Origin: Planctomycetota bacterium
Lineage (GTDB): Bacteria > Planctomycetota > UBA1135
Reading direction: 5' to 3'
DNA: 64,000 nt
NCBI GenBank assembly: GCA_004295085.1
Contig: SHNF01000018.1
Location: 186,001 to 250,000, forward strand
In this document: positions 16,268 through 22,573 of the stretch, one piece after another
Numbering within the stretch: position 1 is the first letter of the stretch
How the letters are laid out: the number at the start of each line of letters is the position of its first letter
Notes under the pieces: generated by a model
Databases searched by the model: none
Seen by the model: the letters and a program-made list of their open reading frames with translations, nothing else
Told to the model about the DNA's origin: nothing
Translations under genes and position numbers: made by a program

Positions 16268-17269
<1,002 letters not shown>

Positions 17270-17513: not shown

Positions 17514-18566
17514 CTAATCTATCAGAACGACGTTGCTAATCTCGCACGTCGTCAAGTTCAGCGCCTGGATCCGGAGCTGCCCACAGGCACCCGCGGGTAC
17601 TGGAAAGTACACACTTCGTGCGTTCCCGAGCTCGCCGACATTGGACATCACGCCAAGCGCTACGCTTGCCCCCAACTCCACTTGCGTTCCGGCACAAGGA
17701 CCGGATGGAATCGTAAAGGGGCCACTTGAGCCAACGCTATAGAGGAAAGCGATTCGGTCACGTGGAGAAGCGCCAGTCAATGCGGCCCGCAGCGTCCCAG
17801 GACATGGACCAAGCACCATGAGGCGCATTGGGTAGGAGATTGGCTCCAAGAACTCCATGGCGCGGACGTCAACAGGTAGATCAACAATCCAATGGCGCTT
17901 GCCCGTTGCAGTATCGATGGTGGCAAGAACACTCGAGCCAGCGTACAACACACCGGTGCGATTGAAGCACAGAGTCTGGAATTCGCCTGAGAAAGCATCA
18001 ATGGAGGGGTTTACGTCGGTGGCCATGCCCGTCGCGGTGTTCAGAATCATGAGGCCACTAGGCGCCGATGCTGTATCGAAGTTCGCGTACGCATACAGAA
18101 CACCACCTGCGAAAGCGAGCGACTGGATGCTACCCAAGCCGGTTGAACCTACTAATTGAGCAGTGCCAGTAGCGAGGTCAATGGTGTAAAGCAAATCAAC
18201 GCCCTCATCCTGTATGGCGTACAGCACATCGCCTAGGCCGAACGCAATGCCTCGGATGTCATCCAGAGGAACCTGAGCCGCGAGAGTCAAGTCAGCCCGA
18301 TCCGGGTTAAACAAGGCGATGCCGGAGGGCCCACCTAGCGCTACGTGGCCGGCGACAAAGATCCGACCGCCACTGTCCTTGGCCATGGCATTTGTGCTGC
18401 CAAGCACAGGCGTAAAGCCCAAGTAGAAGACTTGTCCTGTGGACGATTGAATGGAGTACAGGTCGCCGAAGAAAGACATGCCGATGATGTCTTGTTCTTG
18501 AGCGATCCCAGTAACTGGGAACAGGCCCAGGGCCAGAAACACGACTGCGAGCCAACGGGTTCCCAT
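17514..18566 (-). CDS. Secreted beta-propeller-like protein with Cys-containing C-terminal domain
   Basis: The 350-residue protein has a clear signal peptide (MGTRWLAVVFLALGLFPVTG). Repeated beta segments of YVTN/NHL type follow (FGDLYSIQSSTGQVFYLG, DVLYAIQDEGVDLLYTID, GVLYAGSSVLATIDTATG). The C-terminal domain (about 245-350) has four spaced cysteines and the SGPFTIPSGPCAGT style seen in many secreted proteins of some Planctomycetota. The ATG at 18566 puts the signal peptide first. Base composition is clearly lower in GC than the flanking operon, and the gene runs against it, which suggests later insertion. No enzymatic residues are evident. Confidence 0.75.
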   Translation of the reverse strand: MGTRWLAVVFLALGLFPVTGIAQEQDIIGMSFFGDLYSIQSSTGQVFYLGFTPVLGSTNAMAKDSGGRIFVAGHVALGGPSGIALFNPDRADLTLAAQVPLDDIRGIAFGLGDVLYAIQDEGVDLLYTIDLATGTAQLVGSTGLGSIQSLAFAGGVLYAYANFDTASAPSGLMILNTATGMATDVNPSIDAFSGEFQTLCFNRTGVLYAGSSVLATIDTATGKRHWIVDLPVDVRAMEFLEPISYPMRLMVLGPCPGTLRAALTGASPRDRIAFLYSVGSSGPFTIPSGPCAGTQVELGASVALGVMSNVGELGNARSVYFPVPAGACGQLRIQALNLTTCEISNVVLID

Positions 18567-18607
18567 GGCGAAGCCTCCGCTGAACGGCGGACGTAAGAGT
18601 GTAGCGT

Positions 18608-19657
18608 TCACGAAATTGCTTCCGCTTTGACATGCGGGATCGGCTGACCGCCGCGGGTGATGTTGATGTATTCAAAGTTCTGCAGCGTGTTCAGGATCGC
18701 CCAGCGTGCCGCACGCCGCCGAGCACGGACGCCTTGCACACCGGCTACGGCTTGCCGCACTGCAGTGCACGCGGCTGCGTAGAAGCGAGCACGCACGACC
18801 TCATCGTACGCGGGGGACGGCGCCTGGCAAGCCACAGCCGCAGTCCTCCAGCCAAGGCTGCGCCGCAGCCGCGCCCGATTCAGCCGCTCCGCCGCTGCAC
18901 GCAGCTGCGTCCAGGCCGCCGTGACCTCGCCGAGCTCGAGACTGCCGTCGAGCCCCGACTCCTCCTTCAGCTCGCGCACGCACCGCTCCGCCCACGCGTT
19001 CTGCTGCGGCACGTGGCCTTCCGTCCACAGGTGCACGACCTGGCCACGCTTGAGGTACTCCGCCAGCACACGGCTCCGGTACGCGCCCCCATGATCGCTG
19101 CTGAGCACCAGCGGCAGCGCCAGAGCCTCCTGCCGCGCCTCCTCCAGCAGCGCCACGACGTCCTCCCCGCCCGCCGGCGGCCCCACGCTCAGGCCCACGA
19201 CCTTCTTGCTGCAGACGTCCCGCACGACCTGGCCCTCCAGCACCTCACCCTCCACCCGCCCCAGCTGCGTCCCGTCCACGCTCCACAGCACCTGGGGTGC
19301 CGCCACCTCCACGTGCACCCGCTGACTCTCGAGCCGCTGCCGGCGCTCCCGCCGCTCCGCCCTCTTGCGCTCGGCCACGATCTCTCGCGCCTGCCGCAGC
19401 GACACCATGCCGTTCAGGCCCTTCTGCACGCTCATCGCGCCGCTGGTCTTCCCTTGCCGCTCCCACTCCGCCTCGATCTCCACCACCTGCTGCAGGTCCG
19501 CTTCCCGCCGCGGACGTCCCAGCCGGCCCCGCGCTGCCTGCACCCGCCAGCCGCGCAGCGTCCGTGAGCTCACTCCCAGCAGCTTTGCCACCTGCTCCTG
19601 CCTTCCCTGGCTGCGCCGCCGTGCCAGCACCTCCGCCACCGCGCGCCTCACGACCAC
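18608..19657 (-). CDS. rve-type transposase (second transposase of the element)
   Basis: The 349-residue protein has an N-terminal helix-turn-helix ([18 protein letters not shown], about 21-40). A basic helical linker precedes a retroviral-integrase-like core: Asp in LWSVDGTQLG, Asp in VLSSDHGGAY and Glu in NAWAERCVRELKEE. GTG 19657 is used as start because a perfect AAGGAGGT lies 5 bases upstream (19663-19670). Its last 15-20 residues are encoded by the terminal inverted repeat. It overlaps the tail of the coiled-coil frame, so translation is probably coupled. It resembles the orfB product of IS3-like elements. Confidence 0.82.
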   Translation of the reverse strand: MVVRRAVAEVLARRRSQGRQEQVAKLLGVSSRTLRGWRVQAARGRLGRPRREADLQQVVEIEAEWERQGKTSGAMSVQKGLNGMVSLRQAREIVAERKRAERRERRQRLESQRVHVEVAAPQVLWSVDGTQLGRVEGEVLEGQVVRDVCSKKVVGLSVGPPAGGEDVVALLEEARQEALALPLVLSSDHGGAYRSRVLAEYLKRGQVVHLWTEGHVPQQNAWAERCVRELKEESGLDGSLELGEVTAAWTQLRAAAERLNRARLRRSLGWRTAAVACQAPSPAYDEVVRARFYAAACTAVRQAVAGVQGVRARRRAARWAILNTLQNFEYINITRGGQPIPHVKAEAIS

Positions 19658-20123
19658 GGGATACCTCCTTCCGCCTTTTTCCCCCCGGCGCCGCCTTCTC
19701 CGCTGGCTTCTTCTCCTCCGCCTCCCGCTGCGCCGGCATGTCCCTCAAGATCACGATCAGCTCCTCCGCCATCGCCAGCTTCGCACGCAGTTCCGCGATC
19801 TCCTTCTTCAGCGCCTTTGCATCCTCCGCCATCGCTGCCTCCGGGCTCCCTCGGGTCTTCGGCTGGGTCAAGAGCCCCGCCACCATACCCGACAGCGCCT
19901 GCTGGCTCAGCTGCCACACCCGCAGCCGCGGAATCGCCAGCTCCGCCGCCAGCTCGCCCTTGCTCTTCCGGCCCCGCCAGTACTCGAGCAGCGCCACCGC
20001 CGTCCGGTGCGCCAGGCTCCGCTGCTCCGCGCTGGCACTGCGCCATATCTCTCTCACTGGCCGCGCCGGCCACTTCGGCTCGCTCCGCGGGATCTTCCTT
20101 GGACCTCTTCTCGCCGTTTCCAT
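19245..20123 (-). CDS. HTH/coiled-coil accessory protein of the element (real part about 20123-19660)
   Basis: The frame starts at ATG 20123 with AGGGAGG upstream. The first about 155 residues look like a real protein. They comprise a helical region, an HTH-like segment (ELAAELAIPRLRVWQLSQQ) and a leucine-zipper-type stretch (ALKKEIAELRAKLAMAEEL), then a Lys/Glu-rich end. This is the layout of IS3-type OrfA. Beyond about 19660 the frame continues without a stop to 19245, but as Gly/Ala-rich sequence shadowing the second transposase. The true C-terminus is therefore unclear. A G6A5 run at 19676-19686 could allow slippage. Confidence 0.55.
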   Translation of the reverse strand: METARRGPRKIPRSEPKWPARPVREIWRSASAEQRSLAHRTAVALLEYWRGRKSKGELAAELAIPRLRVWQLSQQALSGMVAGLLTQPKTRGSPEAAMAEDAKALKKEIAELRAKLAMAEELIVILRDMPAQREAEEKKPAEKAAPGGKRRKEVSRGREARGGGGAGTAAQPGKAGAGGKAAGSELTDAARLAGAGSAGPAGTSAAGSGPAAGGGDRGGVGAAREDQRRDERAEGPERHGVAAAGARDRGRAQEGGAAGAPAAARESAGARGGGGTPGAVERGRDAAGAGGG

Positions 20124-21516
20124 CGCTCCCTCCCTGGTATTCGATCGCTTCCGTGCCGCCCGGCGTCTGGATCACCAGCCGCCCGTTCTCCCCATGCAGC
20201 CGCACCTGCTGCTCCCCGATCTGACCGATCAGGAAGACCGCCGGCCGCGGCTTCTCGCCCAGCGCCAGGCTCAGCGCGTTGCGCTGCACCTGCTGCTCCA
20301 ATTGCTCCGCCAGCGCGCTCTCCGCTCCGAAGAAGCGGTCGGCCGGGGTCATCCCCGCGATCCCCTGGTGCGGCCGGCGGAAGTTGTAATGACTGAAGAA
20401 GAGACCCAGCCGCTCCCGCGCGTCCGCCAGGTCCTGGGGCCGCACCCGCTCCCAGAATTCCCGGTTGACCGTCTCCCACAGGCGCTCGCACTTGCCCAAG
20501 GTCTCGGGGTGGTGCGCCCGGCTGACCACGTGCGCGATGCCTTCCTTCAGGAGCAGCTCCTGGAAGGCGCTCTTGCCGCGCCAGGCGTAGTACTGGCGGC
20601 CCTGGTCGGTCAGCACTTCCTCCGGCTTGCCGAAGCGGCCGATGCCCTCGAGCAGCGCCTCGCAGACGATCTCCTGGCGCTGGTGCACGTGCAGGCCGAA
20701 GCTCACGATGAAGCGGCTGTGATCATCGAGAAAGACGATCAGGTAGACCCGCTGGCTGTGGCGGGCGAGGATGAAGCTGGTGATGTCGCTCTGCCACAGC
20801 TGCATCGGCCGGGCCCGCTCGAAGCGCCGCGGCAGCGGCGGCTTTCTGCGGCGCTTGGCCGGCGGCCGGCGCTCAATCCCGGCCTCCGCCAGTGCCCGCG
20901 CCACCGTCGGCAGCGGCGTCCGCAGCGCCTTCCACCGGTACAGCCAGTTGCGGATGCTCCGCAGCCCGAAGTGCGGGAAGCTCTGGTGCACCTCCACCAC
21001 GGCCTCGGCCACCGGCGGCGCGATCGGCTGGCGGCCAGGCGGGCGGCCGACGTAGCGATCCTCCAGGGCCTTCGGCCCGCCGACGCTGTAGCGGTGCCGC
21101 CATTCCAGCAGGGTCTTGCTGCTCACCCCCCAGGTCATGCAGAAGGCCTCCTGGGTCAGCCCGGAGCGCGCGTAGGCCTCCACGGCCGCGCGCCGCTCCT
21201 CCGGCGTGTAGCGCCGGCTGCTGGCGCCGGTGGCGCTGTTGCGCACGTTCCGCCGCGGCTCCAGCGCCGCCGGGCCCGCCTGTGCTTGCCGTCGCCACTT
21301 GCACAGCGTCGCCGTGCTCAGCCCGTGCTGTGCGCAGAAGCTGCGGATGTCGCCCGGCCACTCCGCGTACGCCGCGAGCAGCGTCCGCTTCTCCGCGGCG
21401 CTGTAGAAGTGCCGGCCGGCGCCCGCCCAGTCGGGAGGAGCTCCGCCTGCAAAGCCAGGCGTCGCTCCTCCCGACTGGCTGCCCTCTCCCTCCCTCCTCG
21501 CATCGTCCCCTTCCAT
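19648..21516 (-). CDS. rve-type transposase (first transposase of the element)
   Basis: The 622-residue frame carries two N-terminal HTH segments (SFCAQHGLSTATLCKWRRQ at about 60, and EAFCMTWGVSSKTLLEWR at about 125). The integrase core follows: Asp in LWQSDITSF, Asp in VLTDQGRQYY and Glu in GKCERLWETVNREF. A small beta domain comes near 430-460 (FLIGQIGEQQVRLHG). GGAGGAG precedes the ATG. After about residue 465 it overlaps the accessory frame for 475 bp and reads as Gly/Ala-rich sequence, so the natural C-terminus may have been lost or is recoded. The core is intact. Confidence 0.82.
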   Translation of the reverse strand: MEGDDARREGEGSQSGGATPGFAGGAPPDWAGAGRHFYSAAEKRTLLAAYAEWPGDIRSFCAQHGLSTATLCKWRRQAQAGPAALEPRRNVRNSATGASSRRYTPEERRAAVEAYARSGLTQEAFCMTWGVSSKTLLEWRHRYSVGGPKALEDRYVGRPPGRQPIAPPVAEAVVEVHQSFPHFGLRSIRNWLYRWKALRTPLPTVARALAEAGIERRPPAKRRRKPPLPRRFERARPMQLWQSDITSFILARHSQRVYLIVFLDDHSRFIVSFGLHVHQRQEIVCEALLEGIGRFGKPEEVLTDQGRQYYAWRGKSAFQELLLKEGIAHVVSRAHHPETLGKCERLWETVNREFWERVRPQDLADARERLGLFFSHYNFRRPHQGIAGMTPADRFFGAESALAEQLEQQVQRNALSLALGEKPRPAVFLIGQIGEQQVRLHGENGRLVIQTPGGTEAIEYQGGSDGNGEKRSKEDPAERAEVAGAASERDMAQCQRGAAEPGAPDGGGAARVLAGPEEQGRAGGGAGDSAAAGVAAEPAGAVGYGGGALDPAEDPREPGGSDGGGCKGAEEGDRGTACEAGDGGGADRDLEGHAGAAGGGGEEASGEGGAGGKKAEGGIPWS

Positions 21517-21661
21517 CGCTCTCGCTCCTCCCCAGGTCTCCCCAGGGCTCTGTGCGGCGAGAGCCGATCCCCCTATGTCAAACCGGAAGGTATTTCGTTA
21601 CGCTGGACAGGCGTGCTTGGTGCCTGCTCCTTCGTGAAACAAGTCGGCTAGCGCGCGGCGG

Positions 21662-22573
21662 ATGGTCGAGGAAGGGGAAATCGGTCTGGCGGAGCTGCTG
21701 GCGGAGGTCCGCCGCATCGAGGTGCAGAGCCGCCGCCTGGTGACCGGCGTGATGGCGGGCGGCTACAGCTCGGTGTTCCGCGGTGCCGGCATGGAGTTCG
21801 ACGAGGTGCGCGAGTACGCGGAGGGGGACGACCCGCGCGCGGTGGACTGGAACGTGACCGCGCGCGTGGGCCGCCCGTACGTCAAGAAGTACGTGGACGA
21901 GCGCGAGCTGACGCTGCTGTTCCTGCTCGACCTGTCCGCGTCCATGGACGGCGGCTTCGGCCCGTGGTCGGCGCGGCAGACCGCGGCGCGCGTGTGCGCG
22001 TGTCTGGCCCTGTCGGCGGTCCGCAACCACGACAAGGTCGGCCTGATCGCGTTCCGCGGCGCCGTGGAGAAGTACGTGCCGCCCAAGAAGGGCCTCAGCC
22101 ACGCGCTGGCCGTGCTGCGCGACTGCCTGGCCCTGCCCGGCCACGGCGCCACCGACCTGGCGCCCGCGCTGGAATTCGCGGCGCGCGTGCAGCGGCGGCG
22201 CGCCATCCTGTTCCTGGTGTCGGACTTCCTGGCCGGCGGCTGGCGCGAGTCGCTGAGCCTGTGCGCGCGCCGCCACGACGTGATCGCGGTGCGCCTGCTG
22301 ACTCCGGAGCTGGCGCCGTCCGCGGCCGGACTGCTGCGCGTGGCCGACCCGGAGGGCGGGCGCGCCTCGGTGCTGGACTGGAGCAGCGCGCGCGTGCGCG
22401 CCGCGTACGCGCAACGGGTCGCGGACTGGCGCCGGCGCACCGAGGACGAGCTGCGCCGCGCCAAGGTGGACCGCATGGACGTCCTGGTCCCGCGCGTGCT
22501 CGACAAGGACGCCGTGGCGCGCCCGATCCTCGCGTTCTTCCGCATGCGCGAGCTGCGCGGGGCCAAGCGATGA
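21662..22573 (+). CDS. DUF58 (von Willebrand A-like) protein, MoxR partner
   Basis: The 303-residue protein carries the DUF58 signature GMEFDEVREYAEGDDPRAVDWNVTARVGRPYVKK at about residues 42-75 (shown here only as landmark). A vWA-like core with a MIDAS-type LDLSASMDGG follows. In other bacteria it follows moxR directly and is thought to be a MoxR substrate. Here the element's right end (21609) lies 52 bp before its ATG, so its original promoter or coupling to moxR was probably changed. It overlaps the next gene by 4 bp (ATGA), which starts an unbroken chain of overlapping genes to 28446. Confidence 0.93.
   Translation: MVEEGEIGLAELLAEVRRIEVQSRRLVTGVMAGGYSSVFRGAGMEFDEVREYAEGDDPRAVDWNVTARVGRPYVKKYVDERELTLLFLLDLSASMDGGFGPWSARQTAARVCACLALSAVRNHDKVGLIAFRGAVEKYVPPKKGLSHALAVLRDCLALPGHGATDLAPALEFAARVQRRRAILFLVSDFLAGGWRESLSLCARRHDVIAVRLLTPELAPSAAGLLRVADPEGGRASVLDWSSARVRAAYAQRVADWRRRTEDELRRAKVDRMDVLVPRVLDKDAVARPILAFFRMRELRGAKR

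Follow-up and report, generated by a model that had tools for sequence, protein, structure and literature searches.

A widespread family of bacterial mobile elements with two different DDE transposases and no detectable target-site duplication

Introduction

To our knowledge, a single DDE enzyme normally serves both ends of a bacterial DDE element, and a fixed duplication of the target is taken as a hallmark of transposition. Elements of the IS3 family encode one DDE enzyme, an OrfAB fusion made by frameshifting, and generate duplications of 3-5 bp. Tn7-like and Tn5053/Tn402-like systems employ an AAA+ ATPase and TniQ and produce 5-bp duplications; TnsA of Tn7 is not a DDE enzyme. IS481 elements possess one transposase and give duplications of 2-15 bp, those of the IS1202 group being 5-29 bp (PMC10045372). 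In laboratory evolution, insertion sequences (IS) have inserted without a duplication, with the target lost or rearranged, and insertion into existing breaks was raised as an explanation (PMC11708052).

Here we analyzed an element in a stretch of 64,000 nucleotides from a Planctomycetota bacterium (contig SHNF01000018.1, positions 186,001 to 250,000), hereafter the window. The initial annotation had proposed a single element with two different DDE transposases, either a new family or two fused elements sharing ends. Where a widespread family combines two dissimilar DDE enzymes with dissimilar ends and a missing duplication, a division of labour between strands or ends becomes directly testable. 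Some deletions in environmental bacteria may also stem from such a family. Because standard IS finders seek one transposase and a duplication, they would tend to overlook or split such elements.

Results

Structure of the window element

The element and its parts are as follows.

18600..21609, minus strand: whole element, 3010 bp, TGT...ACA, no target-site duplication; inverted ends read directly
21553..21609, minus strand: left end, upstream of tnpA, TGTCCAGCGTAACGAAATACCTTCCGGTTTGACAT..., left-type motif GTAACGAAA
19648..21516, minus strand: tnpA, 622 aa, IS481-like DDE transposase with two HTH segments and rve core (D244, D304, E344)
19674..20123, minus strand: orfB, protein of ~150 residues with HTH and long helix (coiled coil), frame open to 19245
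18608..19657, minus strand: tnpC, 349 aa, second DDE transposase with two N-terminal HTH-like helical segments, integrase core and C-terminal helices (D128, D188, E224; D-D-35-E)
18600..18656, plus strand: right end, downstream of tnpC, TGTAGCGTTCACGAAATTGCTTCCGCTTTGACAT..., right-type motif TTCACGAAA

All three genes lie within 18600-21609, bounded by one pair of long imperfect inverted repeats whose alignment extends past 50 bp and includes small indels, and the right end contains the tnpC stop codon. This bears out the initial annotation, which had described one long repeat pair around three overlapping minus-strand frames (19648-21516, a frame from the ATG at 20123, and 18608-19657); the TG...CA ends it gave are genuine repeats with the fuller form TGT...ACA. 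The pair at 18600/21609 was not listed when the window was searched with an unguided repeat finder, because the pair has indels. No inner pair of ends was found within 18600-21609, and neither transposase lies there alone inside good repeats of its own. The 4.1-Mb genome contains one full copy, whose flanks have no common repeat; the elements most closely related to it come from Planctomycetota MAGs. Another member of the family has left a remnant ~22 kb before the window and ~41 kb from the window element (L035:3750-4005; G000:C3 near 163750); the remnant comprises the last 78 codons of tnpC, 57% identical to the window copy at the protein level, and the right end TGTCGCGTACACGAAA.

TnpA matched Pfam rve and rve_3 and contains two HTH_Tnp_1 stretches. 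Its score of 233 bits passes the NCBIfam IS481 cut-off of 224, with other family members falling slightly under it. The conserved part ends near residue 465 and the remainder overlaps orfB off-frame. The rve core and the two HTH segments of the annotated 622-codon transposase were recovered by Pfam, and its last ~158 codons are probably an off-frame extension left open in a GC-rich gene. A near-perfect hairpin in the 5' part of tnpA (21427-21478; 23-nt arms, 91% complementary, 6-nt loop) could affect transposase expression.

The orfB frame starts with the ATG at 20123 and is open for 292 codons, ~150 of which are real protein, in agreement with the OrfA-like HTH/coiled-coil frame described earlier. 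Window OrfB had no match in Pfam or NCBIfam profile searches, and the fold search returned no significant match, only weak HTH regulators.

The second, 349-residue rve transposase of the initial annotation corresponds to tnpC, with its triad intact. Window TnpC matched Pfam rve and rve_3 below threshold; its best NCBIfam match was IS3 (E 5e-28), well below the curated cut-off, as for every curated transposase model. The TnpC profile matches retroviral integrase cores (E 2e-15). In the predicted structure (pLDDT 88.5), the nearest known structures are TnsB of the type V-K CRISPR-associated transposon (CAST) and retroviral intasomes.

The insertion site is formed by the following genes.

16268..17269, plus strand: moxR-type ATPase gene, one side of the ancestral site, adjoining DUF58 in most relatives
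17514..18566, minus strand: secreted-protein gene, 365 aa, between moxR and the element, not at this place in relatives
21662..22573, plus strand: DUF58-type gene, other side of the ancestral site, start 52 bp past the element

The moxR and DUF58 genes are adjacent in most relatives checked, and in the window they are parted by the 365-aa gene and the element. The ATG at 18566 is the likely start of the secreted-protein gene, since the GTG at 18611 falls inside the element. The window site was thus rearranged too, but it acquired the secreted-protein gene in addition to the element, and a simple deletion cannot account for this case.

Conservation of the gene trio

We scanned GTDB species genomes with a TnpA alignment and then with refined profiles. 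This family survey gave 69 loci with intact TnpA, one of them on a contig from a viral collection; four survey loci are copies within two genomes. Five of the 69 end within ~1 kb downstream and were left out of the tnpC count. Among the 64 loci with intact tnpA and enough downstream sequence, 62 have tnpC behind tnpA on the same strand, and tnpA-tnpC loci span Planctomycetota, Bdellovibrionota, Myxococcota, Elusimicrobia and others. The same three genes in the same order were found in two further genera of the window's taxonomic family. OrfB is present in 68 loci, with one orfB gene in clade I (A-B-C) and two in clade II (A-B-B'-C). The search for the same ends and trio in relatives, proposed with the initial annotation, thus returned dozens of loci from several phyla with one gene order. 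Copies without one transposase were sought as well and amounted to two loci, L130 and L134, with several kb downstream of tnpA and no tnpC, and to fragments of tnpC. Among the more distant IS481-type relatives, none has a same-strand tnpC.

A reverse search seeded with TnpC covered 392 genomes of the phylum, and its result partly overlaps the TnpA-seeded set. It yielded 17 near-full-length tnpC loci, all with orfB (17/17) and 16 with tnpA sequence, partial in some; the remaining locus is truncated by its contig. The TnpC-seeded copies without another gene are fragmentary tnpC remnants. Profiles and open reading frames of relatives revealed A, B and C only, with no TnsA-, TnsC- or TniQ-like genes. 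The plasmid and phage collections gave no close member, just generic IS481/IS3.

The catalytic D, D and E are kept in 57/57 TnpA and in 56/56 readable TnpC sequences, and judging from these intact triads both enzymes look active. Distances among TnpA proteins correlate with those among TnpC proteins (r = 0.90; permuted maximum 0.22). In a tree with several long branches and moderate supports, TnpA forms one group and TnpC another, with ordinary IS481/IS3 enzymes in between; the two thus trace to distinct lineages within the IS3/IS481 pool. TnpC evolves faster, the mean identity to the window copy in clade I being 0.32 for TnpC and 0.47 for TnpA. The proposal of a single element with two different DDE transposases is supported by both intact triads and by conservation of the trio in dozens of loci.

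Precision and side-specificity of the ends

L103/L107 (4286 bp, 99.95% identical) and L076/L078 (2892 bp, 99.97% identical) are pairs of near-identical copies inserted at different positions. In both pairs the identity stops exactly at TGT and ACA, so the element ends are exact. The consensus of 13 clade I elements is approximately TGTnnTGTGTAACRAAA at the left and approximately TGTAGTGTTCACAAAA at the right. For all 26 ends of these elements, the nearest end was the same-side end of another element; side-specificity was weaker in clade II (15/20 ends). Several clade I elements have their tnpC stop at least 25 bp ahead of the right end, and coding therefore does not explain the right-end motif. 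The side-specific motifs could reflect OrfB, or asymmetric use of one enzyme as in copy-out/paste-in elements.

Target sites

In 25 elements with both flanks, no target-site duplication beyond chance was found, comparison of 40-bp flanks gave nothing above permuted pairs, and three further elements have no duplication either (~28 in total). Ordinary IS in the same assemblies, taken through the same analysis, show duplications of 3, 3-4 and 5 bp. A control of Tn7/Tn5053 size in genome G101, with two identical copies (L222:1643-6333 and L223:142-4832; 4691 bp, TGT...ACA), has 5-6 bp duplications and shares its genome with the duplication-free pair L103/L107. A displaced duplication with filler was considered and was not significant, and no target consensus was found in the flanks.

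In many cases the two flanks come from different genes, both of them broken. Four recognised domains are cut at the element, GH77 (at 329 of 465), cation efflux (66 of 198), PIN_8 (191 of 227) and C5 methylase (310 of 324), and none of the four continues in the other flank, which suggests loss of target DNA at these insertions. Searches of two genomes, which are incomplete MAGs, recovered no orphan remainder of the GH77 or cation efflux domain. At L091:2605-6060, which interrupts a C5 methylase gene close to its end, the right end is followed by 9 nt (ATGTCGAGA), possibly filler DNA, and then by TTCC, which repeats the left flank (4 bp).

No true pre-insertion site was found. At L105, a MalQ/PHP site, relatives are too distant to reveal an empty one. 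L083 was considered as a clean in-frame insertion in one PKD gene and was rejected: its best relative, G116, has more than 1300 additional residues between the halves, so L083 represents a deletion or a gene difference instead of a clean site.

Discussion

Comparison with known systems

The window family resembles the IS481 family, including the IS1202 group, in the NCBIfam match of TnpA, the TGT...ACA type ends and the rve DDE core, but differs in having two DDE genes and orfB, with no duplication in ~28 elements, where IS481 has a single transposase gene and duplications of 2-15 (to 29) bp (PMC10045372). The likeness to the IS3 family lies in TnpC, which is IS3/IS481-like, and in orfB, whose HTH and coiled coil recall OrfA. 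However, two separate complete DDE proteins are present here, duplications are missing, and clade I OrfB has no NCBIfam IS3 match. With Tn7-like and Tn5053/Tn402-like systems it shares a multi-gene machinery, TGT...ACA ends, a TnpC model near type V-K CAST TnsB and the heteromeric idea. Tn7-like elements have TnsA, the TnsC AAA+ ATPase and TniQ/TnsD beside TnsB and duplicate 5 bp of target, whereas the window family makes no duplication (~28 elements) and the window element has no such frames between its ends, as the initial annotation had stated for TnsA and TnsC. Its comparison with Tn7 therefore holds in the sense of working like a heteromeric transposase and fails in that TnsA is no DDE enzyme and Tn7 duplicates 5 bp. 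Insertion without duplication is an occasional outcome of one-enzyme IS (PMC11708052), but apparently the rule in this two-enzyme family.

The literature search found no description of a bacterial element with two DDE enzymes. Judged from profile libraries and literature, the family is apparently undescribed, one of the two possibilities raised in the initial annotation, and is set apart from IS481, IS3 and Tn7 by the features tested; an ISfinder entry could exist.

Proposed mechanism and alternatives

The sequences show that the three genes form an obligate set, that both triads are intact, that the ends are precise and differ from each other, and that insertions lack a duplication. We lean toward a family with a heteromeric DDE transposase, in which tnpA, one or two copies of orfB and tnpC, in this order, make up the mobility unit and the target is joined without stagger and hence without duplication. 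TnpA and TnpC would assemble into a single asymmetric, heteromeric transpososome, each of them mainly recognising and processing its own end, with one enzyme per end or per strand, and OrfB would bridge ends and enzymes as a DNA-binding partner. The two end-joining events would not be coupled by a fixed stagger, so that no duplication arises and the stretch of target between the two joints is often lost. Joining might make use of breaks already present in the target, an idea put forward for occasional IS events (PMC11708052). The most specific version, in which two DDE enzymes, one per end, join independent unstaggered target points and the DNA between these points is removed, is put forward tentatively.

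A less probable explanation is that an IS481/IS3-like element makes an ordinary short duplication that is later erased by adjacent deletions or by recombination between copies, the second DDE enzyme still participating. Both processes have been documented to leave ordinary IS without duplications (PMC11708052), many flanks are two different broken genes, and L083 seems to have lost a large part of its target gene. However, none of ~28 elements keeps a duplication, including the L103/L107 and L076/L078 copies, which must be recent given their 99.95-99.97% identity; nearly all genomes have a single copy, so recombination partners are now lacking; and ordinary IS in the same genomes retain their duplications. 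It is rather unlikely that TnpA is the sole catalyst and TnpC a structural or target-choosing partner with a retained integrase fold. The faster evolution of TnpC and its scores under all curated transposase cut-offs would fit such a role, but a structural role would not require the three catalytic residues that TnpC has kept without exception across very distant clades. Each protein by itself resembles an ordinary IS transposase, and the initial annotation had allowed for two fused elements; nevertheless, a chance fusion of two unrelated IS, nested or side by side and sharing ends by accident, is very improbable. It is refuted by the conserved gene order: the unit recurs in dozens of loci, no inner pair of ends was detected, and the pair is old, co-diverged and reciprocally present.

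A SAR324 locus (L137:5992-8187) has a more distant arrangement, in which an IS481-like enzyme is followed by a coiled-coil frame and then by another, highly divergent DDE enzyme; it may belong to a remote third branch of two-enzyme elements. At L040:4800-6056, the left end and the start of tnpA are joined to part of tnpC, and this looks like an internally deleted derivative. Six MAG contigs (L066, L074, L076, L084, L088 and L257) start or stop exactly at an element end, and that of L074 is almost exactly one element long; such contigs could reflect more than one genomic context within the population, or a free form of the element.
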